DNA from: Pedosphaera sp.
GTDB lineage: Bacteria > Verrucomicrobiota > Verrucomicrobiia > Limisphaerales > JADLHS01
Direction of reading: 5' to 3'
DNA: 64,000 nt
Assembly (NCBI GenBank): GCA_009695195.1
Contig: SIBJ01000004.1
Coordinates: forward strand, 1-64,000
Both the position numbers and the translations under genes were made by a program. Positions 19,497-37,700 of the stretch are shown here, piece after piece (within the stretch, counting starts at the first letter, position 1; the number at the start of each line of letters is the position of its first letter). Below the pieces are notes generated by a model, which saw only the letters and a program-made list of their open reading frames with translations, was not told the origin of the DNA and searched no databases.

Positions 19497-19798
19497 AAGC
19501 CCTGTCCTTCGTAGCAGCCGGCGTCAGGAGGCTCCAGCCCGCATATTTCACACGTTTTTTCACGCTCAAGCTTGCATCGGAAACGGGCGGGCCGCCAGCA
19601 GCGCCGCAGCTCAGATTTCCAATCTGCTGTATCGCCGACTTCCAGTCGGAAGGGTGTCCGAATAGTGGCGGGCACCCGCAGGTTGGAAACCCGCGACACA
19701 GCAGATTGGAAATCTGCGCTACGCTTCCGCTGGTGCTCGGCCGTGTGAAATTTTCAGGCTAACTGCCTATTTCACATGTTTTCCCGCGCTCAAGTTGG
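19497..19798. repeat. Cluster of nested palindromic repeats between direct repeats
   Basis: The gap between the NCS1 gene and the RTX gene (19429-19835) has no gene. It contains a GTAGCAGCCGGCGTCAGGAG unit (19511-19530), a 19 bp perfect inverted repeat (CAGATTTCCAATCTGCTGT at 19612-19630, its complement at 19698-19716), inner dyads such as GACTTCCAGTC, and a ~30 bp direct repeat (TTTCAC..GTTTT..CGCTCAAG) at about 19544-19573 and 19769-19798 that flanks the palindromes. Confidence 0.75.
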
Positions 19799-19835: not shown

Positions 19836-22800
19836 TCAGGGCGCGACAACGCGGGCGCGGAAGAACAGACAAGGATGCTGCGTCAGGGTTTGCGGGTCGG
19901 CGATGGTAACGATGACGCGGCCGCCGGACGGTGCGCCCAGGGTGATTCCGCCAGTGCCGCTCCAAGCGCCGCTGCCGTTCTTGCTGGCGATTGTCAGCCA
20001 CGGGTCGCTCAGGCCGAGGTCGGTACTGGTCTGGATTTCCAACAGCGCGCCGTTGGGCATCGGCTCGAAGATCGAGAACTGCACCGCGCCGCGCGCGCCG
20101 GTGCCATTGTCCACGATGAGCGGAATGAGCGGTGAGGTCAGCCCGATAACTCCAAAGTCCACAGCTAACGTGTAGCTGGCGTTCGAGATGGTGTTGGCGG
20201 TCGTCAACGTCTCCGGTGAAACGAGGAGGGCGATGAGTTCGTCGGTGGCGATGTCGAGCGCGGCGTTGCCGTTGGAATCGTGGTAGAGCGCGGTGCCGGG
20301 CACGCCACCGATGGGCGACGCGCCGAGGAAGTATTGACCCGCGTTGCCGGCGAGGCGGAGCCGGTCACTTTGCGAAGGCGTGAAGTCCTCGATGAGGGCG
20401 TAGCCGTTGTGACCGGGTGAAATCGGCGAGCCATCATCGTAAAAAACCGTGCTGCCATCGCCGAGGACAAATGTGTCGGTATTGGCGCCGCCGTTGAGCC
20501 GGTCAATTTCGCCAGCGCCACCGCCGCCGTTGAGGATGTCGTTGCCGCCCTCGCCGCGAAGGTAATTGTTACGAGCGTTGCCGGTGATGTTGTTGGAGAC
20601 GCTGTTCCCCGTCCCGTTCAACGCGTCGCCCGTGAGCACGAGATGCTCGACGTTGATGGGCAGGGTGAAATCCACGCCGGCGCGCACGGTGTCGGTGCCT
20701 TCGGAGGCGAGTTCGGTGACGACATCTCCGGGGTCGTCCACGATGAAGGTGTCGTTGCCCGTGTCGCCAAGCATGGTGTCCGCCCCGGGACCGCCATCAA
20801 CCCAGTCGTTTCCAAAGTATCCGTCCACGGTGTCCGCCCCCGGGCCTCCATAAATGAAGTCATTCCCGAACCATCCGTTCAGGTTGTCATTGCCGTCACC
20901 GCCCGAAAGGATGTCGTTGCCGTTCTGGCCACGGAACACGTCGTTTTTGGTGCTGCCGGTGAAATGCACGCGTTCGAAAGCGCCGGGGTTGACCTGGTCC
21001 AGCAGCGCGCCGTTGCTGATGCGGTGACGTTCGGGCACACCGGTGGTGGCATGGCGGATCACGCCGGCGGTGTCCGCGTCCTCGCCGAGAGAGTAGTCGA
21101 GGATGATCAGGTCGTCACCGGTTCCGGGCACCACGGTGTCAATGCCCAGGCCGGGGTTGAGGATGTCGTTGCCGCCGAGCAGGGAGATCTCGTTGTTGAA
21201 CCGGCCGGACAGGATGATCACATCGTTTCCACTCCCGGTGGTCAGGTGGCGGATGCGCTCGAAGTTTCGCAGGTAGGTGCCGTTGGTGAAGACCATGTCA
21301 CTCGGCGCAAGCTGGCTGAAGAGGACCGGCTCGGTGAGGTTGCCCAAGTCCACCGAGAGCACGTCGAAACCCTCGCCCCCGTCGAAGTGGAAGAAGGTCG
21401 TGGCGGTGGCGGAACTTGCGGAACCGCCGGGGGAGTTGAGGTCCGTGACGTCATCATCGCCCGAACCGGCATCCACGAAGTCGCTGAGGTAGGCGCTCAC
21501 GCTATTGTCCGCAAACTCGAAGAGGATGACATCATTGCCCGGCCCGCCGAGCACGGTGTCGTTGCCCGTGCCCGCATCGAGGGTGTCGTTGCCCTCGCCG
21601 CCGTCGAGGTAGTCGTCTGCACTGCGGGATTCGAGGTAGTCGTTGCCGCCTTTGCCAATGAGCCGGTCAACATAGACTTCCCCGTAAAGGCGGTCGGCCG
21701 CCGCGCCGCCGGTGATCTCGAACCGTTCCGTTTCGGGGCCCAGGTAAGAGACCAGAACCTTGGATCCAAGCGTGGTGTAAACCGTGCCGATCGCGAAGCC
21801 TTCATAGCCGTTGACCGCATTGCCCGTCATTGAAATGCCCCGGGCGTTCACTTCGGCCACGGTGGAGAAATCAATCCGCAGCGTATCCACGCCGGCGCGG
21901 GGCTGCACGGTTTCATCCCCGTCGCCTTCCTGCCACTGCGGATAGGGCAACACGTCTATGATGTTCGGGCCGGCGTCGCCCGTCAGGTTGTCGATGAACC
22001 GCGAGCCGATCACGTTCTCGAACCCGCTCATGGTCATGTTCGTGGCGGCGCCGCCGAGGGTGCCGCTGGTGAGGCTCACGGTCACGCTGCCGATGGATTG
22101 CTCGAAGGAGAGGGTGTCGTTGCCGTCGCCGCCGTTCACGCTGTCCGACGTGCGGAGCGAGCTATTGCCTATCTGGTAGGTTCCGCGCCAGTCCGCAAAG
22201 ACCAGGTCGTTGCCGGCACCGGCGTTGATGGTCTTGTTGAAATACGCCGGCTCCTGGGACGCGGCGAGGCGGATGATGTCATTGCCGCTGCCGCTGGTGA
22301 GCGTGCCCAGCGTTTGGATGTTTGTGAACGAATCACCGTCAGGAAACGTCATGCCGTTGTTGGTGCCGACGGTGAAACGGAGCGGGACGGTTTGCTCCGA
22401 GTAGTCGGCGGAAAGGCGGTTGGTGCCGGGGCCGCCGTCGAGGAAGTCGGGGCTGAGGAGATCCGTGGTGAACAAATAATCATTCCCCTCGCCGCCAACG
22501 AGCGTGTCCACCCCATTGCCGCCATCGAGTTCATCGTCGCCCTCGCCGCCATCCAGCATGTCAACGTCATCGCCGCCGTAGAGTTTGTCGTTGTCCGCCT
22601 GGCCGAAGATCGTGTCGTCGCCGGCATCACCGTAAATCGTATCGGCATCGCCGATGGCCAGGTTCGGGCCGGTGGCCTCGGCAAAGTCGCCGTAAATCAC
22701 ATCCGGGCCGCCCGCGCCGTGGATGAGGTCACCGCCGCCCATGCCGTGGATGGTGTTGGCGTTGTCGCTGCCCGTCAGGTTGTCGCCCGTTTCGCCGGCG

Positions 22801-24275
22801 CCGATCAGCACCTCAAAGCCGCTGACGACATCACCGGCTGCGTAGCCGCTGGTGCCGAGGCCGGTGAGCAGGCTGACGGTGATCGGTTCGGAAGCGAAGC
22901 CGGGAATCTTGGCGGCTAGATAGGAAAGCGTGTCCATGCCCTCGCCGCCATCCATTGTATCCGCCCCCGCGCCGCCATTGAGCATGTCATTGCCCGTGCC
23001 GCCCAGCAGCGTGTCGTCTCCGAAATCGCCCTCCAAGAGGTCGTCGCCGCCATGGCCCTGGATGTTGTCATTGCCCGCCAGACCGCGGAGCAACTGGTCA
23101 TGGCCCTCACTGCCGTGCAGAGTATCGTTGAGCGGCGTGCCATTGTAGCGTTCGATCGAAATGAGCGTGTCCAGCGCGGCGTCGCCGGTGAAGATGCCGG
23201 TGCGCAAGTCGAGGGTGATGGCAGACAGGGAGTCCGCCAAGGAGGCCGTGTCATTGCCGGGACCGCCATCGAGCGTGTCCGCGCCGAGGCCGCCGATGAG
23301 TTCATCATTGTCCGCTCCGCCGCGCAGGAGGTCGTCGCCGCCCTGGCCCTTGAGTTTGTCCGGGCCCTCGCCGCCGTTCAATTCATCCGCCCCGCCACCG
23401 CCGGTGAGGACATCGTAGCCATCCCCGCCGGTGAAGAGGACGGGAATGGTCACGTCCGGCTGCACTTCGATGAGATCGCCGCGAGCGCCGGAGTTGGCCT
23501 TGATGAGCGTGAAGGGGTCGGTGAACGTGTTTTCCTCCTCGAACGCGCTGATGACCAATCCACCCAAGCTGTTCGAGATCGCAAACTTCTCGGCGACGTC
23601 GTTGGTCTGACCCACGAGCCGCCGGTGCGCGCGATCGCCGACGTTCAGGACTAGTTCGTTGGGGTTGGCCGAGCCGGGTTCCGCCAGCACGGGCACGTTG
23701 TTGTCCCGCGAGTCGAAGTCAAGGATGACGACGCGCGGGCTTTCAAACTCGAACGAGACGCCGAAGGGCGGCCAGCCGATCTCCAGATAAGCGCGCAGCC
23801 CGGCGGACAGTTGGCCGGCGGCGTAGAAAAGGTCGTCGATGGGAAACGCCGCCAGCGTGCTGCCGCGCACGCGGCCCTGGGCATCGCCTTTCAGGTCGTC
23901 GAGATACATGCCGACCGTGGCGGTGATGTCGCCCTCCACACCGACCGAGGCGATGACGACGTTGGCCTCCACCCCCGCGGTGACGCCGAAAGAAAGTTCA
24001 ATCCCCGTGAGCCGACCGTTGGTTTCATCCAGCGCCATGGCGTAGAAGCCATTGAAGAGCAGGTCTGGATTCACGCCGCCGCCGGCATTGAAATCGAAGA
24101 TGCCCTTGGTATCGTAGCCGAACCCGAACTCCGTTTTCATCCCGATGTGCCCACCGAGCGTGACGCCGATCGGCCCGAGCACGGGGAAAAAGAGCGGCCC
24201 AAGCGTTTCATCGAAACCGATTTCGCCGGAGCGATAGGAGAACAGCATCGCCTCGCGTCCGAGGAGCAGATCCAC
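19836..24275 (-). CDS. C-terminal part of split RTX-type calcium-binding protein
   Basis: Open frame of 1479 codons from a GTG. It begins with a domain containing DLLLGREAMLFSYRS and FGFGYDTKGIFDF, followed by many glycine/aspartate nonapeptides of the GGxGxDxLx type (for example GGDGNDNLNGWFGNDFIYGG), the Ca2+-binding beta-roll of RTX proteins. It ends with a domain containing LEIQTSTDLG and FFRARVVAP, a C-terminal type common in verrucomicrobial exoproteins. It is in the same frame as the gene at 24291-26051, separated only by a TAG and five codons, and the GTG has no ribosome site, so this is one gene cut by a nonsense codon. No type I secretion genes lie nearby. Confidence 0.85.
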   Translation of the reverse strand: MDLLLGREAMLFSYRSGEIGFDETLGPLFFPVLGPIGVTLGGHIGMKTEFGFGYDTKGIFDFNAGGGVNPDLLFNGFYAMALDETNGRLTGIELSFGVTAGVEANVVIASVGVEGDITATVGMYLDDLKGDAQGRVRGSTLAAFPIDDLFYAAGQLSAGLRAYLEIGWPPFGVSFEFESPRVVILDFDSRDNNVPVLAEPGSANPNELVLNVGDRAHRRLVGQTNDVAEKFAISNSLGGLVISAFEEENTFTDPFTLIKANSGARGDLIEVQPDVTIPVLFTGGDGYDVLTGGGGADELNGGEGPDKLKGQGGDDLLRGGADNDELIGGLGADTLDGGPGNDTASLADSLSAITLDLRTGIFTGDAALDTLISIERYNGTPLNDTLHGSEGHDQLLRGLAGNDNIQGHGGDDLLEGDFGDDTLLGGTGNDMLNGGAGADTMDGGEGMDTLSYLAAKIPGFASEPITVSLLTGLGTSGYAAGDVVSGFEVLIGAGETGDNLTGSDNANTIHGMGGGDLIHGAGGPDVIYGDFAEATGPNLAIGDADTIYGDAGDDTIFGQADNDKLYGGDDVDMLDGGEGDDELDGGNGVDTLVGGEGNDYLFTTDLLSPDFLDGGPGTNRLSADYSEQTVPLRFTVGTNNGMTFPDGDSFTNIQTLGTLTSGSGNDIIRLAASQEPAYFNKTINAGAGNDLVFADWRGTYQIGNSSLRTSDSVNGGDGNDTLSFEQSIGSVTVSLTSGTLGGAATNMTMSGFENVIGSRFIDNLTGDAGPNIIDVLPYPQWQEGDGDETVQPRAGVDTLRIDFSTVAEVNARGISMTGNAVNGYEGFAIGTVYTTLGSKVLVSYLGPETERFEITGGAAADRLYGEVYVDRLIGKGGNDYLESRSADDYLDGGEGNDTLDAGTGNDTVLGGPGNDVILFEFADNSVSAYLSDFVDAGSGDDDVTDLNSPGGSASSATATTFFHFDGGEGFDVLSVDLGNLTEPVLFSQLAPSDMVFTNGTYLRNFERIRHLTTGSGNDVIILSGRFNNEISLLGGNDILNPGLGIDTVVPGTGDDLIILDYSLGEDADTAGVIRHATTGVPERHRISNGALLDQVNPGAFERVHFTGSTKNDVFRGQNGNDILSGGDGNDNLNGWFGNDFIYGGPGADTVDGYFGNDWVDGGPGADTMLGDTGNDTFIVDDPGDVVTELASEGTDTVRAGVDFTLPINVEHLVLTGDALNGTGNSVSNNITGNARNNYLRGEGGNDILNGGGGAGEIDRLNGGANTDTFVLGDGSTVFYDDGSPISPGHNGYALIEDFTPSQSDRLRLAGNAGQYFLGASPIGGVPGTALYHDSNGNAALDIATDELIALLVSPETLTTANTISNASYTLAVDFGVIGLTSPLIPLIVDNGTGARGAVQFSIFEPMPNGALLEIQTSTDLGLSDPWLTIASKNGSGAWSGTGGITLGAPSGGRVIVTIADPQTLTQHPCLFFRARVVAP

Positions 24276-26226: not shown

Positions 26227-27570
26227 TTGAAGTGGTTCCTGAACGATGAACTACTCAAACAAAATCCGTCCCTCAAGCCGCGCCGCCCGCTGGAACAGCG
26301 GCTGGCGCAGCGGCCGGCAGTGCGCGCACGGCTGCATCAGCTGGCCGCCACGCTGGATGAATCCGTGGGGGACGACCCCACCGCCGATCAAGCCGAGGAG
26401 CGCGTGACCGAGCAAGTGCGCCGACTGGCCCTGGAAGTTCTGGGCCAGTGGGCGCGCGAAGCCAATGCCCACACCCAGGCCCAAGTGATGACCCACCATC
26501 CGGAAGCCAGCCACCACGGCAAGAAAAAAACGCTCAACTGGCAGACCACGTTTGGTTGGGTGTCCGTGGCGGAAGCGCAATGGCGACTGGGGCGGCGCGG
26601 CAAATTACTGCGGCCCTTCTGTGAACGGGCCGGGGTGCGCCCGCGCGGACGTTCGCGTCGGTTGCAACGCGCGCTGGTGGATTTCGGGGCGGAGGAAAGC
26701 TTCGCCCGTGCGACTGCGCGCGTGCAGGAACACGATGGCCTGGACGTAGCCGCCGAAATAGTGCGCCAACAAACGCTCGCCCACGGCGCGCAGGTCAGCG
26801 CCTTGCAGGTGCCGCCACCCCAATCGAGCGCCGCCACGCTGGTCACCCAACTGGACGGCTGCCTCATCCCCATCGTCGTCCCGCCCACGACCGGGGCGGA
26901 TCGGCGGCGGGGCAAACAACTGCTCGGGCGCGAGGCCCGCCTGTGTCTGGCCCGCCCGCAGGATTCGGTCACGCCGCGTTACGGGGCCACGCTGGGCAGC
27001 GTTGCCCTCACCGGCGCGCTCTGGCGGGACACGGCCCTCGCTGCGGGCTTGGGCGAGCGGACCCACGGGCATGGCGTGGGCGACGGGGCCGAGTGGATTC
27101 TCACCCAGTTTCAGGAACAGTTCGGCGACCAAGGCGGGTATCTGGTGGCTTTCTACCACGTCAGCGAATACCTCGCCGCCGCCGCCCTGGTCATCCAATC
27201 CAAAGACCCGCAAGGCTGGCGGCGGCGGCCACAAGGCCGGTTGCTGGAGAACAAGGTAACCGCCGTGCTGCGCGCCCTGACCGCGCACCTGGAACCCGAA
27301 GGGATCTCGCCAGCCCCCGTGCGCGCGGCGCACCGGTATGTGAGCCAACGGCGGCATCACTTGGACTACGCGGGGGCGCGGGCCGCCGAACTCTGCATCG
27401 GTTCCGGGGAAATCGAAAGCGGCCACCGGCATGTGATTCAACAACGCCGCAAACTGGCCGGAAGCTGGGGGCAGGAGCCGAGTGCCGAGGCGATGCTCGG
27501 CTTGCGTGTTGCCCGCGCCAAAAACCTCTGGCACCGCTACTGGTCAGTTACCCAATCCGCCCTCAACTGA
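26227..27570 (+). CDS. ISKra4-family transposase
   Basis: A 447-residue protein. It has the ISKra4/UPF0236-like DDE layout: LVTQLDGCLIPIVV with the first Asp, GVGDGAEWILTQFQ with the second, and GSGEIESGHRHVIQQRRKL with the Glu and the conserved RRK. The N-terminus is helical and basic. The start is a TTG at 26227 (read MKWFLNDELLKQ); no better start is visible between the left terminal repeat and this point. The TGA stop lies inside the right terminal repeat. It appears intact. Confidence 0.9.
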   Translation: MKWFLNDELLKQNPSLKPRRPLEQRLAQRPAVRARLHQLAATLDESVGDDPTADQAEERVTEQVRRLALEVLGQWAREANAHTQAQVMTHHPEASHHGKKKTLNWQTTFGWVSVAEAQWRLGRRGKLLRPFCERAGVRPRGRSRRLQRALVDFGAEESFARATARVQEHDGLDVAAEIVRQQTLAHGAQVSALQVPPPQSSAATLVTQLDGCLIPIVVPPTTGADRRRGKQLLGREARLCLARPQDSVTPRYGATLGSVALTGALWRDTALAAGLGERTHGHGVGDGAEWILTQFQEQFGDQGGYLVAFYHVSEYLAAAALVIQSKDPQGWRRRPQGRLLENKVTAVLRALTAHLEPEGISPAPVRAAHRYVSQRRHHLDYAGARAAELCIGSGEIESGHRHVIQQRRKLAGSWGQEPSAEAMLGLRVARAKNLWHRYWSVTQSALN

Positions 27571-27688: not shown

Positions 27689-30600
27689 TCAGACCGCCGC
27701 CGACTCTTGGCGGAGCGCCCGCCCCGCCCAACCAAACGCGCCGAGCACGACCAGCGTCGCAAGCAGAATGAGAATTCTCACCCCCGACGACGCCGCTTGC
27801 ACTGCGCGCGCTTCCAGACCGATGTGCAAATCCGCCTCCTTGTCCACCGCGACGGAGCGTTGGAACGTCAGCACGCGTCCCTGCTGCGGAATGTTCGCGC
27901 GAATCGCGGCGGCGGTGGTCACGGCGGCGTCTTGTTGCTGGATCAACTTCTCCGCGAGACGCATGTAGGCGGTGTTTTCGTCGGCGGAGTTGCGGTCAAT
28001 GATCTGCTTGGCGTCTTGTTGTGTGTAGTTGAGGTCCTTCGCGCCGCGCAGGTCGCGGAAGCGGCCCCCGAGCGCGCCGGTGTCACCGGCGGTGGCGGCC
28101 TGGCGGACGTTCAAGCCGACGAGCGCTTGTTGCAGCTTGAGGTTGTGCAATTGCACGCGGGCGTCTTCGTTGAAGGCGTTGTCGTGCGTGCTCAGGCCAT
28201 AGGCGGATTGGAACGCGCGGCGGGCTTGTTGCGGGTCGCCTTTTTCAAGCCACGAATTGCCCATCGCGAGCATCTCCTCGGCCTCCTTGGTCTTCTCGCG
28301 CTGCAACAGCGATTCGTTTTGCAAATAGCTCTGCACGTCCACGGACGCGGGCCGCGCGACGTGTTGCTCGTCCTGCAATTGCATTGTCCCGCTCGTGTTC
28401 GCCACGCGCCACTTCTCGTTCAGAAACACGCGCCACGAAATATTCTCCAGCGGCAGATCAAACTTGGGCGCGAGCAATTGCAGATCCAGCGAGCGCGCAC
28501 CCGTCTTGCCAATCTTGCTGCTGTAAAAAAACTCGACCGGCACGGGCTTGTCCGTGCGCGACTGCTTTTCGAGCGGAATCAAAATCTTGTCTCCCTCGCG
28601 CCACGGCCACACGCCGTTTTGATTCACGAACGCAAACCAGAACTTCGCGTCCGCCGGCAGCGTGAGATGCAGCAAGCGCTTGTCGCCCGGCTGCATTTCG
28701 AGCCGCACCTGCGTCAACATCACGCCGTCGTCGGAGATCACCGAAGTGAACGTGATGTTCTGCACGCGCGCGGCCAGAAGCTTCGCCGCCTCATGACGGT
28801 CAAGTTTCAGCGGCAGTTCAAATCCCGGTTCGACGAGCCGGTAGGCGAAGTTCGCCGACACCGCCTGCAAGTTTTGCTGCAACGCGCGCGGAATGCTCTG
28901 CCACTCGGTCGGCTGTAACGTCGCGGGCAACGCCTCCACGCGCACCTGCAATCGCCCGCCCGCCTGCACCGTCACGAAGCCGCGTTGCAGATTCACGTCC
29001 GCCGCCTGCACACCGCGCACCGCCGTCTCCGCCGCCTGGTTCGCGATCGGCGTCTGGTAATTCACCTGCAACAAAAACTGGCCGATGACGCGCCGCTGCA
29101 ACTTCACCTCCCACTTCTGCAAATCATTCGTCACCGCGCCGGCGACGGCCTGGAAATCCGAATCCGAAAAATACTGGCCGTTGAACCGCACGCTCTCGGC
29201 GTTCGTCGGCAGCCAGACGCGGAACAATTTCAATCCGGTGTTCTCGATTTGATATTGCAGGTTCGCGGCGATCTTCACTTGCGCTTCGGTCACCGTCGCG
29301 TGTTGCAGGCTCGTGACTTGAATCCACGGATCCACCTGCTCGATCTTGAGCGCGAGATTCCACGGCGTCTGCAAGACGCGAAACGCCAGCACGCCTTTCT
29401 GCCGCACGCCGGAGCGTTGCGGATCGAGTTGCGACAACCCTTCCACCGTGGCCGACTGCAACTGCATCCCCTGCTCCGGCACGACGAGCAACGTGCCCTG
29501 TTGCTTGCCGGCCTCGCGCAACACCAGTTGCGGCACCGTCCACGCGCTGGCCGCTTTCGTGCCCGGACCGGCGAGGCTGATGGCGAACTGTTGCCGGCCC
29601 TCAGTCTTGCCTTTCAAATTCAACGTGATGACGCGGCCCGCGTCGGTCTTCAATTCCGTCCAATGACTCAACGCCGCGCCGCTGATGGACTCGACATCGA
29701 AGCCCGGCGGCAGGACGAAGCTCAACCGGAAAATTCCCGCGCGCGTGATGTCCACCGTCGCGTTCGCGGCGAGCACCGTGCGATCTTCGCCGAGCGAAAG
29801 CGTGTTCTGCAAATCCACGCGCACGTCCGGCTCGACCGGCGACGCTTTCAACGACGCCGTGGCCTTCGCGTCGGAGTAACGAAACGCACGGCGCACGGTC
29901 AGCCCGGGAATTTGCGCCGCGAGCGATTGCGCGACCTCGCCGGGGAAATCTTCGAGATTGATCGGCGAGAAAATCTCTGTGGTAACCGTGTCGAGTTGAA
30001 CCTCGTTGCCCGTGGCCACGCCGAGCACGCCGATCTGATTTGCGGCACCCTCCACCGACAGCAAGCCGACTGATTGCTCGAACGGCAGCATCCCCGTCGC
30101 GACCTGCGAGCGCACGAGCAGCGTGAACGATCGCGATTGCGCCCGGCTGAACGTGACACGGAGTTTGCGCGCGTCCGGATCGAAGCGCCACAGCGAAACC
30201 AGTTGTTCCGACTTCTGACCTCTGACCTCTGACTTCTGCCCTCCAGTTTGAGCCTCCTCACGTCGGCTGCTACTGACGTCGGTGATCGTCGCGCCGCGCG
30301 GCACGTCGAGGATCAGCTCGCTCAGTTCACCCTGCGCCGGGCGGATCGCGACGAGATGTGCGCCCTCGATGACGCCCGCCGACGGCACGTAGAGTTGGGA
30401 AACCTCCACGTAAAACACCGCCTTCTCGTGTTTCACATCGCGGCTGCGCGGCTTCCAGCGAAACCACGCGTCATTCACCGGCGAGAGCACCAGGGCCGCC
30501 ACGGTATTGCTGCCCGCCAACTCTCGCTGGATGGACACCGCGTGCGGCGACAACACGTCCACGTCCTGACCCGCGATGGTGACACTGAGCTGGTTGATGA

Positions 30601-33600
30601 GTCCGCACGTCGTCGGCAAATTCATCACGCTCTCGGTCGGCCACTTCGTCACCTGCAACTGATATTTCAATTCCAGATCGAACGTGCCGTCGCGCTGCGC
30701 GATCAACTGTTGCGTCCGCTTCCCGCCGACGACCGTTTGCACCAGCTTGAGCGCGTTGCTGGAATAATTGAGTTGCGTCATCACCGCCGGCTCGACGAGC
30801 AGCGGCAACGTCTGGCCCTTCACCGCGACCCAACGAATTTTCGCCGTGGCCAGAGCGAATTCTTCCTCGATGCGAATCTGTTGCGTGATGGATTCCGGCA
30901 CCGCTGAAACTTGTAGCGCGGATTTGGAGTCCGCCGCGTCGCGAGTTTTTGATCGGCTGCCCGCGCTAGAACCCGCGACGTTTGGTTCGTTTTGAGCTAG
31001 GAGCAAGACGCGGGGAGCGGCTGGTTCACTATCCCGAAGGGATTGTGTCTTCCAGCCCAGGGTTGCGAGGGACGAGCTACCCTTGGTTGGCGGGTGATTA
31101 CTCTTTTCAACCCCAACGGGGTTGTATCGGGTCGTCGCTGATTCTGATGCAACCCCGTTGGGGTTGAATTCCTTTGCGGACGAATTCCCAGGGTAGCTCG
31201 TTCCTCGCAACCCTAGGCTGAGTGCTGGAATCCCGTTGGGATTCTGAGACGCCGCATGACCTTCGCAGGCCGACCAGAACAAACCCACGAGGAGAATAGA
31301 GGCGACCGCTGGCGTAATTCCGTTTTCCGTCAACGGCTTTCTCGGCACGGACCAGATTCCGCGCAACGCCGGCAGCAAAACATGGAGCAACAAAAACGCC
31401 GCCAACACGCCGAAGAACAATGGCGCGCCGTTCATCGAACGCAGCGCCGCCCAAGCCAGCAACATCCAGCCGGCCACGCGGCAAACGGGCTTGAGCGAGT
31501 CGGCGGCGCCCAGCCAGCCGTAAATCCACAACACCAGCGCGAGCAACACTGGCAACGCAAACCCGCTGACACCCAGTCCCGTCGCCGACTCCGCCACGTT
31601 GGCCACCTCCACTTTTAATTCGCTCCCCGGCTGCTGCACCGGCGCGAGCATCGTCACGTCGCCCGGCGCGAAGCCACTGCCCCGGCCCGCGAGGTTGACG
31701 AGTTGCGCCGACGCAAAGATCGCGACCGTGATCGCCACCAACCCGAGCAGCGTGCCGACGACATGTCGCGCGCTGAAACGGCCCACGCCCTCGACGCCGG
31801 CCCAGCGCCAGACGATCAATCCCGCGAGCAACAACACGAGCGGCATCACGACGGCTCCGACGATGCGGCCCGCATCGTCGCCGGAAAACATCCGCGCCAG
31901 TTGCGCGAAGCCCGACACGTCCGGCACGCCGCCCACGGGCGTCAGTGAACCGGTGAGATAGGCGAGCCGCTGGCCCGCGTCCGGTTCGATCCGCCATTCC
32001 GCGAGCATCACCGGCGCGTCCACTTTGGGCGCGGTGATGGTCACGCGCGTCGCGCTCGCGGATTTCGCGGCGAGTTTCAGATCGAGTTTCAACACCGCGT
32101 TCGGGTCCGCGCGTTGCGGCAATGGAATTAGGTTTGCGCTCCCATCCTTCACCGGCACGACCGACTCGCCGTTCACCGTCGCGGACCAGAGTTCCATTCC
32201 CGCCGGCAAGGTCAGTTTGAAATTTGGATTGCCGCGATTCTTGACGAGATAGCTCGCGTCCATGAGCACCTGCCCCTCCTTCGAGATGCGCGTGACCAGC
32301 GACGCGCGGTCAACGACTTGATCGAGCGATTTGCCCTGCGCGAGCGGACTCAGCGCGAGTTTCAGATTGAAAGGCCGTGACGTGTAGCGATACGCCGCGA
32401 GCAACGGCGCGTCGAAGAACAGCCGGTATTCCGCCGGGACTTCGCCGGTTTCGAGCGGCAGCAGGCTCGGCGAAACGTCCACCGGCTTCACCTGAAATTG
32501 ATACGCGCTGATGACGAGCGTGTGGCCGGATTCGGATTGCGCGTCGAGCGGTCGCGCGCCGGTGAACGCGAGCGTCTCGCCCTGCGACTTGAACGGGCGC
32601 TCGTAAGTCGCGAGCAACGTGAACGCGCCGGCGACCGGCGAGTGCAACTGCACGAGATAACCGTTCGTGGTCTTCTGCCAGTTGCGGATGTCTTTGCCCG
32701 TGAACTCGACGTTGAACGCTTCCTCCGACAACTCGACGCGGAACGCGGCCATCGGCGCGCCGGAGATCAGATAATTCATCACGCTGCTGCCATACGCGAT
32801 GCCTTCGCCGATGGAGAACAGATGAAAGCCATCCGCCGTTACGGTCTGCGGCAGGCGCTCGACGCGCATCGTCGCCGACCAACCCGGTTCGCTCAAACGA
32901 AACGCCGACTGCAAGCCGGTCACTTTGCGCGGGAAAAACGCCGTGGCGATTTCCGTCAACGCCTGCGAACGCTCGGCGCTCAAACGAAAACCCGCGTCCG
33001 CCGACACGCCGACGTTGCCGCGAACGGATTTCGCCTTCACCACCTCGACGCGCGGCAAAGTCCAGTTCGTTTCGCCGAGCGGTTTGTTGCGTTCGAGCCG
33101 GAACTGCACGACCTGCCGGCCCATCACGGGCTGGCCATAGACGATGCGAAGTTCCGCGTCCGCCTCGTCCGCCGGCTCGCGCAGAAAATAGTCGTTCATG
33201 CCCGACGCGTTGAGGCGCGCGATGGCGTAGCCCTTGGGCACGCGCAGCAACAGTTCACGCAGCGGCGCTTCGCGCACGTCGAGTTCGATCTCGCCATCAA
33301 TGACGAGTTCGTTCTGGCCGTGATGATACGCGAGCACTTCGGAAACAGTCAGCTCGGGCTGGATCTGGTCGGCTTGAATCCGCAACGCGTAATCGGCGCT
33401 GGAAAAACGATACGCGAAACGCTGGCCGCCGGTCGCGCGCAGGGCGGACTTCGTGGCGTCACTCTCCGGAAATTGTTCGGGCGAAATCTGCGAGAGACCG
33501 GTCGCCTGCGTGACCTCAAGCCGCACCGCGCCTTCGTTCACGATGCGGAAAAATCCCGCGAAGCGCGTCGCGCCTTCGGGTTGCAATCGGATGGCGTCGG

Positions 33601-34741
33601 TCGTCTGCGGAAACGCGCCAAGCGGAGTCTGGAGTTGAACTTGCAACGCGAAGGAATCTTTCTGCGGCTGGTTGAGTTGAACGACGAGTTGCCGGTCGTT
33701 GGGATTTTTTCCATCTTTCGCCGGCTCGACGTTCCACGCCAGCACCTGGTCGCCCTGCACGCGCGTGACCTCGCCCGCGCCGCGCAGCAGCAGCGTCACG
33801 CGATTGAGTTCGCCCTGCATCACTTTGAAATCCACCAGCGCCACCTGCCGCATCAGGCCGGGGCTGAAGCTGATCTGCGAGAGCATCGTGGCCGCGTAAA
33901 AAAGTTTTCCCTCCTCGGGCTTGCGCGATTCCTTCCACGACAATTTCACCGCGCCGCCCGCCGGGAGAAAACTCGTGAAGTCGCCGCCCTTGCGCTCGGG
34001 CCGCGCCGCGCCGGCGAATTCAAACTGCGTGTCTTCGGCGAGGCCGCGCAACACGACGGGCTGCACCGCGGCGGACGCCACGCGAAAATCCACGCCGCTC
34101 CAACCGCCGCCCTGTTTCACGGCGACATTGAACTTGAGCGAGATGGGATACTTGCCGGCGCGATCAAACACCGCCACGTAACGTCCCGACTCCGCGCGCA
34201 ATTCCCATTTCGGATGCGGCCCGACTTCCGTGAGCGCGAGCGTGCCGGAAAGTAATTCAAGCGGGCCACTCTTCGGACTTTCCACGTTCGCAGTCGCCGT
34301 GAGTGTAAAACTCGCACGGTCGCCGTTCAAATTGCCGATGAGTTTGAAATCCTGGAGCGTGATGACGGGCGGCGGTGGGTTTGTCAGCGGCGGAGGTTCC
34401 TTGGCGACGAGCGTGCAGACCATGAACACGGCGGCGAAAACGCACGCCGCAATGTTGCGGGTCCGCCGTGCGCCTGAAAGATGGTGTGAACGCTCGCCCT
34501 CACCCCGGCCCTCTCCCCCGAGGAGAGGGAGGGCCATTCGGCGTCGCTGGAAAACTCGTCGGCCTCTCTCACCATCTCCGCTGCCTTGGTCTTCGGATGA
34601 AAAACGCGGCGAATAACCAGCGCCTTCGCATCGCCCAAAGCCGGCGAACAATTCTCCCTCTCCCCGGGGGAGAGGGCCGGGGTGAGGGCGAGCGTATCCA
34701 CTAACTCTCGTTCCAGTCGGCAGTTTGATTTGTGTTCTCAT
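27689..34741 (-). CDS. Giant (2350-aa) envelope protein with in-frame repeat insertions
   Basis: ATG at 34741 starts 1 bp after the stop of the upstream vWA gene. After repeat-derived residues ~16-83 there is a signal-like helix (NIAACVFAAVFMVCTLVA). A long beta-rich region extends to ~960, a bundle of about five or six membrane helices lies at ~965-1155 (for example VVMPLVLLLAGLIVWRW), and a second beta-rich region reaches ~2320, ending in one C-terminal helix (ILILLATLVVLGAFGWAG). Repeats are in frame at residues ~16-83, ~1165-1237, ~1256-1277 and ~1489-1510. No catalytic motif or family was recognised. Context suggests a partner of the vWA/anti-sigma-like protein. Confidence 0.82.
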   Translation of the reverse strand: MRTQIKLPTGTRVSGYARPHPGPLPRGEGELFAGFGRCEGAGYSPRFSSEDQGSGDGERGRRVFQRRRMALPLLGGEGRGEGERSHHLSGARRTRNIAACVFAAVFMVCTLVAKEPPPLTNPPPPVITLQDFKLIGNLNGDRASFTLTATANVESPKSGPLELLSGTLALTEVGPHPKWELRAESGRYVAVFDRAGKYPISLKFNVAVKQGGGWSGVDFRVASAAVQPVVLRGLAEDTQFEFAGAARPERKGGDFTSFLPAGGAVKLSWKESRKPEEGKLFYAATMLSQISFSPGLMRQVALVDFKVMQGELNRVTLLLRGAGEVTRVQGDQVLAWNVEPAKDGKNPNDRQLVVQLNQPQKDSFALQVQLQTPLGAFPQTTDAIRLQPEGATRFAGFFRIVNEGAVRLEVTQATGLSQISPEQFPESDATKSALRATGGQRFAYRFSSADYALRIQADQIQPELTVSEVLAYHHGQNELVIDGEIELDVREAPLRELLLRVPKGYAIARLNASGMNDYFLREPADEADAELRIVYGQPVMGRQVVQFRLERNKPLGETNWTLPRVEVVKAKSVRGNVGVSADAGFRLSAERSQALTEIATAFFPRKVTGLQSAFRLSEPGWSATMRVERLPQTVTADGFHLFSIGEGIAYGSSVMNYLISGAPMAAFRVELSEEAFNVEFTGKDIRNWQKTTNGYLVQLHSPVAGAFTLLATYERPFKSQGETLAFTGARPLDAQSESGHTLVISAYQFQVKPVDVSPSLLPLETGEVPAEYRLFFDAPLLAAYRYTSRPFNLKLALSPLAQGKSLDQVVDRASLVTRISKEGQVLMDASYLVKNRGNPNFKLTLPAGMELWSATVNGESVVPVKDGSANLIPLPQRADPNAVLKLDLKLAAKSASATRVTITAPKVDAPVMLAEWRIEPDAGQRLAYLTGSLTPVGGVPDVSGFAQLARMFSGDDAGRIVGAVVMPLVLLLAGLIVWRWAGVEGVGRFSARHVVGTLLGLVAITVAIFASAQLVNLAGRGSGFAPGDVTMLAPVQQPGSELKVEVANVAESATGLGVSGFALPVLLALVLWIYGWLGAADSLKPVCRVAGWMLLAWAALRSMNGAPLFFGVLAAFLLLHVLLPALRGIWSVPRKPLTENGITPAVASILLVGLFWSACEGHAASQNPNGIPALSLGLRGTSYPGNSSAKEFNPNGVASESATTRYNPVGVEKSNHPPTKGSSSLATLGWKTQSLRDSEPAAPRVLLLAQNEPNVAGSSAGSRSKTRDAADSKSALQVSAVPESITQQIRIEEEFALATAKIRWVAVKGQTLPLLVEPAVMTQLNYSSNALKLVQTVVGGKRTQQLIAQRDGTFDLELKYQLQVTKWPTESVMNLPTTCGLINQLSVTIAGQDVDVLSPHAVSIQRELAGSNTVAALVLSPVNDAWFRWKPRSRDVKHEKAVFYVEVSQLYVPSAGVIEGAHLVAIRPAQGELSELILDVPRGATITDVSSSRREEAQTGGQKSEVRGQKSEQLVSLWRFDPDARKLRVTFSRAQSRSFTLLVRSQVATGMLPFEQSVGLLSVEGAANQIGVLGVATGNEVQLDTVTTEIFSPINLEDFPGEVAQSLAAQIPGLTVRRAFRYSDAKATASLKASPVEPDVRVDLQNTLSLGEDRTVLAANATVDITRAGIFRLSFVLPPGFDVESISGAALSHWTELKTDAGRVITLNLKGKTEGRQQFAISLAGPGTKAASAWTVPQLVLREAGKQQGTLLVVPEQGMQLQSATVEGLSQLDPQRSGVRQKGVLAFRVLQTPWNLALKIEQVDPWIQVTSLQHATVTEAQVKIAANLQYQIENTGLKLFRVWLPTNAESVRFNGQYFSDSDFQAVAGAVTNDLQKWEVKLQRRVIGQFLLQVNYQTPIANQAAETAVRGVQAADVNLQRGFVTVQAGGRLQVRVEALPATLQPTEWQSIPRALQQNLQAVSANFAYRLVEPGFELPLKLDRHEAAKLLAARVQNITFTSVISDDGVMLTQVRLEMQPGDKRLLHLTLPADAKFWFAFVNQNGVWPWREGDKILIPLEKQSRTDKPVPVEFFYSSKIGKTGARSLDLQLLAPKFDLPLENISWRVFLNEKWRVANTSGTMQLQDEQHVARPASVDVQSYLQNESLLQREKTKEAEEMLAMGNSWLEKGDPQQARRAFQSAYGLSTHDNAFNEDARVQLHNLKLQQALVGLNVRQAATAGDTGALGGRFRDLRGAKDLNYTQQDAKQIIDRNSADENTAYMRLAEKLIQQQDAAVTTAAAIRANIPQQGRVLTFQRSVAVDKEADLHIGLEARAVQAASSGVRILILLATLVVLGAFGWAGRALRQESAAV
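30210..30273. repeat. Two repeat units in frame inside the giant gene
   Basis: 30210-30238 is a stutter of TCTGACCTCTGACTTCTG type, encoding QKSEVRGQKSE. 30250-30273 is one arm of the family at 27597-27670 with one change, encoding SSRREEAQ. Together they replace what would otherwise be a short loop after GATITDV. Confidence 0.85.
30911..30972. repeat. Repeat in frame inside the giant gene (GCGGATTTGGAGTCCGC type)
   Basis: Contains GCGCGGATTTGGAGTCCGCC and a GC-rich right part; it encodes SKTRDAADSKSALQ. Only one copy is seen in this window. It is assigned as a repeat from its dyad character and from similarity to units known to be scattered in verrucomicrobial genomes. Confidence 0.6.
31029..31247. 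repeat. Nested palindromic element in frame inside the giant gene
   Basis: The outer arms (GGGTTGCGAGGGACGAGCTACCC and the complement near 31187-31215) enclose inner arms TTCAACCCCAACGGGGTTG (31107-31125) and CAACCCCGTTGGGGTTGAA (31150-31168). The minus strand reads through without a stop and encodes peptides such as FNPNGVASES and LGLRGTSYPG between the membrane bundle and the second beta-rich half. Confidence 0.85.
34491..34694. repeat. Palindromic element with 41 bp inverted arms at the 5' end of the giant gene
   Basis: The arms at 34491-34531 and 34654-34694 match in 40 of 41 positions (outer end CGCTCGCCCTCACCCCGGCC). The minus strand encodes the well-known spurious-looking peptides RPHPGPLPRGEGE and GGEGRGEGE. 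It lies between the start codon and the signal-like helix of the giant protein. Confidence 0.92.
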
Positions 34742-34742
34742 A

Positions 34743-37700
34743 TTATTTCCCTTCAATGCTCTTCGCCTGGCGGATCATCCATTCGAGTTTCTTCGGGCGC
34801 GCATCGGCGCCGTAGATTTCCGGCACGCCGCTCAAGTGACCGAGCACGCGATCCAGCGTGACTTCACCGGCGAACGGACTCGCCGCCAGCCATTCGGAAA
34901 ACGCGCTCGCGCTCGCGGCGAGCCGCATTGCGTGGCTGGATTGTTCGAGCGACATGGCATTGCCAGTGAACGGCACGTCCCACGACTGCTCGCGATAATC
35001 CGTTGTGCCGGGAATTTTGTAGCGCACGCGCACGGTGCCGAGCGGGCCTTCGCCGGCGGGATTGACTTCCACGGTGTAAAGCGCGTTACCGGCTTCCTGC
35101 GCGGCGATCTCGGCGGCGTCCACGGTGTTGTCGCGGAATTGTTCCTTGGTGAGCTGATGCTTCGCGTAACCGATCTGGCGATACGACGTCACGCGCTTGG
35201 GATTGAATTCCACCTGAACCTTCACGTCCGATGCGGCGACCTTGAGCGCACCCGCGAGTTGCCCGGCAAAATCTGTGGCCGCTTCCTCCGGCGAATTGAT
35301 GAAACCGTAACGGCCATCTCCATTGCGCGAGAGGACTTCGAGAAGATCGTCGTTGAACCCTTCCCAGCCGATGCCGAAACAATCCAGCGCGATGCCCTGC
35401 TTGCGCTGCGCCTCGACCTTTTGCTTGAGCGATTCCGGCTCGACGTTGCCGAGATTCGCCGCGCCGTCGGTGAGCAACACGACGCGATTGATGCCGTTCG
35501 CGAGGTAATGACGCGCCGCCGTCTGATACGCGAGGTTCATCGCGTCTTCGAGATTCGTGCCGCCTTGCGGCGTGAGACCGCTCACTTGCTCCGCCACCTC
35601 ACCGGCCTTGTCGCCCGAGATTCCATCCGCGAACAGTCGCGGCGTGCGCGCGAACGTGATGACACTGAGTTTATCCTGCGGTTGCAACTGCGACGCGAGC
35701 ACACGCAACGCCCCGCGAATGATTTGCACGCGATCCGCCCGCTCCATCGAGCCGGAATTGTCGAGCAGCAGCACGATGTTCAACGCCCGCCCCGCCTGCC
35801 GGCCCGCCGCCGCCGTCTTGAGCGAGAAACGCAGCAGGTCGCGATTGTGCGCGAACGGATACCGCGCCCGCTCCCACGCGAAGGCGATCGGCATTCCCGC
35901 CGGCGCTTCCGGATCGCGATAGTCAAACGCGTTGATGAACTCCTCGCTGCGCACCGAAGCCGCGTCCGGCATCTGCCCCTTCTCCAAACTCGCCGCCGCG
36001 AGCTTGAACGACACATCGCTGACGTTGAGCGAGAAGGTGGAGAAATTATTCTCGCTCGTCTGGATTTCGGGCTGGGGAATCGGCGCGTTCGTCGAAGCTT
36101 TGCGAACCGGCGGCGCGTCAGGCTCGACTGCGGGAATGTTGAGAGGTGGAGCAGTACCGGTAGCGTCGGAATCGGAGATTTTCAATTCCGCGCGCAACCG
36201 GCCCACTTCTTTTTGCGCAGCAGTGATTTTTGCCTGTTGCTCCTTGAAGCGGCCCTCAATCGCTCTGATTCCGCCGCCCAATAATCTGAGCCGCTCTGAC
36301 TGACGGTGATCTTTGTAGGCCGTAGTGACGGCGTTGGCGATTTTGGCCGCCTCGTCAGCATCGGCACTCTTGGCGCGAACCTCGACAAGGCTCGTGTTTT
36401 TTACGGGCTGCAATTCCAGCCTGCTCTTCAGTTGGCTGATTGCCTCAGTTTTCTTGAGCTTCTGGCCGGGCTTCGCCGCCCACGCCTCATCCAACTTTAG
36501 ATCATCCACCACCTTGCCGAGCACGGCGTCGGATTTAAGGGCCTCAAACTCGGTTTGAATGAAGAACGGATCGAAGCCGTGAGTGGTCCGACTCCCGGCC
36601 ATCCCCTCGATGTCGGTGGCGTCCCGCTCGACTTTGACGCGAGCCGTGCTCGCAAACGCACCGCCAACTGGGGCACCCAATCTCCGCCAGAAACCGGTTT
36701 TCTCTTTCGCTGGCACGGCATTGTCCATGACCTCAACCATCGTCGTCTTCGGCAACGAGAGATCGATCTTCTCGGCGGCAAGTTTGTTGTTGAGGATTCG
36801 GCCAAAGAAGACCAACTCCTCCAACTCGCGCTTCTTCTCGAAGTAGGGCTTGCTCTTCGTAGCGGTTTCACCGTCCAGTTCGAGTGCGATTACATCGCTT
36901 ACGGTTCGGCCGGCTTGCAACACGTCCGTCTGCGTCGGGCCGGCGGGCTTTCCGGCCGATACGTAGAGTTTCGTGCGCTGCTCTTGCGCTTCTTGCTGAA
37001 CACTGGCGATCTTCTTTTGGAGAGTTTCGCTTTCCCCGGCCCTTTCGATAGCGGGCAGGCGCAAGGATCGCGACGGCACGGTTGCGAGCTTGGGTTCCTT
37101 CGCGTCCGCAGGCGACCCGCTATCTTGCGGCGCCGCAGGAAGAACAATCTTCCCGAAATTCTCAACCGACTTGGCCGGGCCTGCTGCGCTACCCGCAACG
37201 TCAACTCTGGGAATGTTGCCCTGCTTTTGCTGCGGGCTGTCAGCCGAAGCCAGAGGGCTGCTTTCCCCAAGACGCTCCTTGGCTTCGGGAGTAATGCGCA
37301 AGCCGCCCGTGATGAGTTGGTCCTCGGACAGACTCTTGTTCTGCTCAGGTTGTGGCAGTGCCAAAGCGGTGTTGCCGCCAACGACGGTTATTCCATCGCC
37401 AAGGTTGTTGGCTCCCGTAACCGTCAGCGCGTCCGCGCCGCGCTCTTCGCGCGAGGTCTCACCTCGGGAGTCAGTTCCCAATTGCGTGAGTTGACGGGAT
37501 CGGGTCGCTCGATCGTATGAGCGCTGTCCGCTGCTTTCGGTTTCAGAGGTCCTGGACTCAGACCGGAAGAGCTTCCCGGCCGAAGGCAAGTCGCCGAGGA
37601 CGGGCACCTTCGCGGCGTTCACTTGGAGCGCGCCCTCAGCTTCCAGTTTAATCCCGGCAACTTCTGCTGGCCGCCGCGTCTCATCCAGCACAAGCAAACC

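Follow-up and report, generated by a model that had tools for sequence, protein, structure and literature searches.

REP- and MITE-like palindromes lie in frame at a few apparently tolerant sites of a long Limisphaerales envelope protein gene

A gene that stays open through several palindromic repeats raises the question of whether the repeats are kept for the peptide they encode or are mobile DNA that the protein tolerates. The window analyzed here, the first 64,000 nucleotides of contig SIBJ01000004.1 of a Pedosphaera sp. draft genome (G000), contains such a gene. A sequence-only reading of this DNA had counted five repeats from different families in it and proposed that they were selected to stay open in one frame. 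We conclude, with a probability of roughly 0.85, that they are RAYT-type REP and MITE insertions which purifying selection has left in place at tolerant sites. The features discussed are as follows, in window coordinates:

27689..34741, minus strand: host gene for an envelope protein of about 2350 residues, open over 2350 codons
34476..34709, minus strand: E1, inverted dimer of the CCCTCACCCC..CTCTCCCC family, 234 bp, about 78 residues before the signal helix
33161..33163, minus strand: residue 532 site, empty here, with an in-frame E1 monomer (+19 aa) in genomes G002 and G003
31262..31912, minus strand: membrane-helix bundle, residues ~949-1165, preceding the linker (secondary structure of the AlphaFold model)
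30914..31267, minus strand: inter-domain linker, residues 1164-1281, holding E2 and E3; an insertion hotspot in orthologues
31026..31247, minus strand: E2, GTAG-tagged REP dimer with inner CAACCCC/GGGGTTG palindrome, 222 bp, of a family that flanks an intact RAYT
~30913..30967, minus strand: E3, weak GGATTTGGAGTCCGC / GCGGACTCCAAATCCGCGCTAC unit, probably a decayed GTAG-type REP
30200..30268, minus strand: loop ~1497-1519, holding E4/E5, with palindromic inserts also in G028 and G154
30245..30274, minus strand: E4, single arm of the GTAG-tagged REP GTAGCAGCCGACGTNAGGAGGCTC, matching genomic E4 copies
30210..30240, minus strand: E5, 7-bp stutter (GTCAGAG)n, the spacer type inside an E4 dimer elsewhere in the genome
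27597..27670, strand not assigned: complete E4 dimer (GTAG..CTAC hairpin), outside the ORF

An intact gene with disordered insert segments

The minus-strand ORF at 27689-34756 is free of stops and keeps a single reading frame across all of the inserts, as had been read from the sequence. Its likely start is the ATG at 34741, which adjoins the stop of the upstream gene, and the protein runs from an N-terminal hydrophobic signal helix through a beta-rich half, the membrane-helix bundle and the linker to a second beta-rich half. A Pfam search found no family for it. Orthologues are present in many Limisphaerales and related Verrucomicrobiota, among them Chthoniobacter flavus Ellin428 (L317), and the terminal branch leading to G000 in the gene tree (0.162) is not longer than those of its relatives; the host gene is thus not visibly decaying and appears to be still under constraint.

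An AlphaFold2 model, run with 57 sequences, has high confidence for the membrane helices and the beta domains. The pLDDT drops below 50 over residues 1164-1281 (E2 to E3), exactly the stretch that separates the last helix from the following strand, and it is 55-65 in the E4/E5 loop; low values in the linker and at the N-terminus are partly expected from the scarcity or absence of aligned sequences there. In the N-terminal model, site 532 falls within a loop that separates two strands. Judged from the model, the insert segments are probably floppy, unstructured protein. A Foldseek search with model residues 930-1640 returned ribophorin I of oligosaccharyltransferase and M1 aminopeptidase beta domains as the best matches, both with low TM-scores, and a functional assignment from them was dropped for that reason.

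The genome is a metagenome-assembled draft (4.46 Mb, 162 contigs) in which repeats can misjoin contigs, which could in principle have produced the gene as an assembly artefact. However, both halves of the gene are collinear as one ORF in dozens of independent assemblies, similar inserts occupy the same sites in other genomes, and a misjoin would not keep the frame four times, so we regard an artefact of this kind as scarcely credible.

Two neighboring ORFs of the window may be recorded here. One (26227-27570, plus strand, 447 aa) is IS transposase-like by eye and has no Pfam match at E<=0.01; the complete E4 dimer lies between its stop and that of the host gene. The other (19836-24275, minus strand, 1479 aa) contains 11 stretches matching RTX calcium-binding nonapeptide repeats.

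The inserts appear to belong to three or four families

Copies of each insert were counted across G000 from BLAST matches, with a simple codon-usage test of the flanks to identify copies in frame. E1 occurs at about 41 places in the draft. It had been described as a palindrome with 41-bp arms, and a strong palindrome it is, although the arms measure 75 nt (34476-34550 and 34635-34709) and are 79% complementary overall; its RNA fold of -158.8 kcal/mol (z -12.4) was equaled by 0 of 200 shuffles. The arms begin CGCTCGCCCTCACCCC and carry no GTAG tag. No transposase was found beside E1 in G000, nor was an E1 target-site duplication identified. By its sequence we regard E1 as a separate MITE-like family, distinct from the GTAG-tagged REPs; like bacterial MITEs and BIMEs it is short, multi-copy and inverted-repeat, and has no gene of its own.

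As E1 sits between the stop of the upstream gene and the signal helix, and REPs at annotated N-termini are often non-coding (PMC3733652), it might lie upstream of the true start and be untranslated, leaving the gene with internal inserts only. The available starts speak against this: an in-frame ATG, GTG or TTG before the hydrophobic helix occurs only at residues 1, 6, 36 and 74, the ATG at residue 6 comes straight after the upstream stop, and residue 74 is within the 3' arm of E1, so that every start before the helix encodes some E1. We think an untranslated E1 unlikely but worth keeping in mind, and it is compatible with our preferred explanation of E2 to E5.

E2, which begins with the GTAG tag (GTAGCTCGTTCCTCGCAACCC), has 61-nt arms and the nested CAACCCC..GGGGTTG palindrome noted in the sequence-only reading, and its RNA folds at -125.2 kcal/mol (z -11.5). 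It is found at about 12 places in G000. Copies lie on both sides of an intact RAYT ORF (153 aa, Y1_Tnp domain) at G000:C36, and a broken RAYT at G000:C37 is adjoined by E2 as well.

E4 also begins with a GTAG tag (GTAGCAGCCGACGT). It occurs at no fewer than 30 places in G000, mostly as GTAG..CTAC dimers; the host gene holds one arm only, in a segment (E4/E5) that does not fold significantly, and this arm is recognizable because complete E4 dimers in the genome are near-perfect hairpins. One such dimer (fold z -11) fills the intergenic gap right after the host-gene stop. E4 was not found in the six RAYT-match loci searched in the draft, which is 91% complete, and no RAYT adjoining E1, E3 or E4 was found in draft G000. 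The E5 stutter occurs at about ten places. At G000:C2:71735-71870 it forms the spacer within an E4 dimer that starts with nearly the same bases as the copy in the host gene, and a single compound element made up of E4 and E5 is therefore the best reading. Treating E5 as separate from E4 in the host gene is disfavored on the same ground, though lone E5 heptamer hairpins do occur.

E3 has a GTAGC end and is single-copy in G000, where BLAST found no second strong copy, and its hairpin is not significant (fold z +0.6). Of the loci retrieved, the corresponding linker of genome G005 is the only other one to contain this 22-bp core exactly. E3 was therefore rejected as an independent multi-copy family for G000. 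E1, E2 and E4 are multi-copy, and the five different families are reduced, as E2 and E4 share the GTAG tag and E4 and E5 occur as one element. From these sequence relations the host gene would hold about three or four families, not five.

Several further elements came to light in G000. Two more RAYT genes have their own flanking repeats (L155 on G000:C12, GTAGCCCACGGCGCCAGCCGTGGG; L158 on G000:C35, GACCGCGACCGGTCCCCGGTCGCAGCG), and there are at least three REP/RAYT pairs in the one genome. Four ORFs (L346, L347, L348 and L351) contain in-frame hairpins (SEVRGQKSE..TSDLRPPTSDLR) built from 7-bp stutters of the E5 type; the first of these ORFs looks PriA helicase-like, judging from its LLHGVTGSGKTEVYLQAI motif. 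Within the window, at 19510-19661, an E4 arm lies close to a match with the linker-element family of genome G100.

Orthologues lack the inserts or hold other ones

If the segments were inserted, orthologues should lack them, and this was examined in an alignment of 76 orthologues together with a second set for linker and loop lengths. The alignment with close orthologues (76-50% identity) covers residues ~126-1163 and ~1284-2350 and leaves the E1 region and most of the linker (E2/E3) unmatched. In-frame insertion into a gene whose orthologues lack the segment is accordingly observed for E1 and E2 in the 76-orthologue alignment, where the corresponding segments are far shorter; the linker span (residues 1150-1300) has 151 aa here versus usually 38-67 aa. 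The E4/E5 loop has 36 aa versus 15-39 aa in orthologues, a range which indicates that the insert sits in an already variable loop. Orthologues without the repeat reach 35 aa there, so that loops of nearly equal length, which had been named as evidence that would weigh against insertion, do exist at E4/E5. The N-terminal tail, linker and loop are border positions, as had been proposed. Other orthologues carry different insertions: one (L169, G089) has a LysM-like segment (VVRAGDTLSGIARNNQFSVHELQIANNL) after residue ~190 of its N-terminal half, which is the insertion of a domain and not of a repeat, and another (L231, G250) has stutter-like low-complexity inserts (PNTKHQTPNTRE.., GSGFRVQGSG..) at residues ~352, ~989 and ~1633, apparently of another simple-repeat type.

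Across the 76 orthologues, significantly palindromic in-frame inserts occupy only three internal slots, besides a borderline insert in G250 at residue ~1633 (z -2.7) that is simple-repeat-like. The linker after the last membrane helix contains palindromic elements in five lineages (G000, G005, G044, G100 and G154). The insert in G044 is a GTAGGGCGAAGGCTCCCGCC palindrome, those in G100 and G005 are E3-like elements, and G154 has an E1 dimer with flank twice over in nearly identical form, apparently through tandem duplication. Three lineages have loop 1497 filled: G000, where the arm is recognized by family and not by folding; G028, with a complete E4 dimer whose codon position is that of the G000 insert; and G154, with another palindrome. 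The third slot, at residue 532, is filled in G002 and G003. N-terminal tails with elements are found in G002 (E1, in another frame), G113 (an E2 monomer) and G028 (another palindrome). The elements concerned are abundant in their own genomes: that of the G044 linker occurs at least 40 times in G044 and was not found in the nine others of ten genomes searched, that of the G100 linker has ~43 copies in G100, and that of the G028 loop has at least 40 in G028. By a rough estimate, about eight events over ~2225 residues, five of them in one short linker, are far from uniform.

The inserts at loop 532 of G002 and G003 share 93% DNA identity, while their flanks share about 75%. Simple vertical descent of this insert is doubtful, as the gene tree separates G002 from G003, and local recombination at the site was not evident from sliding identity; the gene tree is partly discordant with taxonomy, and the relevant support is weak or discordant. 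Common descent or exchange may lie behind the inserts shared at 1497 (G000 and G028) and at 532 (G002 and G003), and likewise behind the E3-like cores of G000 and G005.

Judged from the aligned loci, the new point is that the same landing sites have been used repeatedly by unrelated families across lineages. We tentatively suggest, as a possibility of broader reach, that certain inter-domain linkers of long bacterial envelope proteins are recurrent landing pads, which take up one unrelated REP/MITE family after another in frame as earlier ones are lost, and that mobile palindromes so serve as a continuing source of new disordered linkers in Limisphaerales proteins.

Random insertion and purging account for the frames

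From about 22 in-frame elements in 4.46 Mb, some 0.04 would be expected per 7-kb gene, and the four in the host gene are far beyond chance by this rough estimate. Other in-frame hosts in G000 include genes with UvrA, UvrD, AIR-synthase/PurL, FtsX, DEAD-helicase, methylase and GatB domains. Just outside the window, a long ORF with DUF7133, HEAT_2 and cytochrome c domains (L113:2517-8000, minus strand; G000:C142:66517-72000) holds two in-frame E1 elements (C142:69198-69356 and 70456-70514).

A genome-wide count of in-frame copies, which the earlier reading had proposed as a check, gives 8 of 41 for E1, counting the host gene, and about 7 for E4 out of 27 tested. Bacterial genomes being mostly coding, so low a fraction for E1 is expected if harmful insertions are purged. 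The in-frame copies of E1 use all three sense frames (PHPGPLP, LTPALSP and PSPRPSP), with no single one favored, and E1 has 2.39 open frames of 6 versus 2.55 in dinucleotide shuffles. These results speak against the element having been selected for a single frame, and the pattern fits, as far as the sequences go, random insertion followed by purging of events that break the frame or the fold.

The opposite proposal, that the elements are selected as coding modules, open in one frame and adding useful loops, gains something from E4, whose open frames are slightly above those of shuffles (3.00 vs 2.56 of 6), and from the 532 inserts of G002 and G003, which are more alike than their flanks. Beyond the E1 frames, however, the insert sequences at the same site are unrelated between lineages and the linker is modeled as disordered, and we hold selection as coding modules to be very improbable. 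Use of the added loops by the proteins is likewise unsupported, the inserts being lineage-specific, swapped for unrelated families and modeled as disordered.

An RNA-level role is also conceivable, in which the E1 hairpin near the start codon and E2 between the halves would tune translation or folding of a long membrane protein. Both elements fold very strongly, and G002, G028 and G113 have N-terminal elements as well. Most orthologues, however, are without such a hairpin at these places, and the E4/E5 and E3 segments are not significantly folded; a role of this kind is quite unlikely.

Under the preferred reading of insertion and purifying selection, RAYT (HUH/Y1) transposases would copy GTAG-tagged REP palindromes into single-stranded DNA, and another enzyme, not assigned to the RAYTs, would do likewise for E1, so that elements would have entered the host gene one after another. 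Insertions that broke the frame or a folded domain would have been lost. As the comparison of orthologues shows, insertions do persist in the N-terminal tail, the post-bundle linker and two loops, sites at which other lineages hold other families. The added residues would be translated, and the added peptide would be disordered and near neutral.

Relation to known systems

Intragenic copies of the GTAG-tagged REP superfamily are richest in Opitutus terrae (Verrucomicrobia), where the hosts include uvrA, UvrD-type helicase and RNA helicase genes, sometimes with two insertions per ORF (PMC3733652). The elements described here share with those REPs the GTAG tag, head-head inverted dimers, spacers of 20-100 bp and, for E2, association with a RAYT, and their in-frame hosts are much like the Opitutus terrae list (PMC3733652). 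They differ in that one ORF has several families, that E1 lacks the GTAG tag, and that the linker and loops of orthologues are filled by unrelated families in several lineages. In the literature found, in-frame REPs number one or two per gene. Intragenic GTAG REPs are unusually dense in the host gene, which also holds a GTAG-less, MITE-like family.

The likeness drawn earlier to the palindromic elements (RPEs) of Rickettsia is apt, in that palindromic repeats lie in frame in functional protein genes and add peptide. Rickettsia genomes are AT-rich. Unlike the RPEs, E1 here favors no single frame. The mode would thus work like RPE insertion in Rickettsia, by analogy, and membership of an RPE family is not claimed.

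With its refilled sites, the set of 76 orthologues makes a comparative experiment of the tolerance of proteins for selfish DNA: insertion-tolerant sites can be mapped from it, a minimum of independent events can be counted, and the question of neutrality versus later use can be put directly. Peptides from mobile DNA, such as LTPALSPGERE, SSRREEAQ and SEVRGQKSE, are present among the predicted genes and the protein families of this group.
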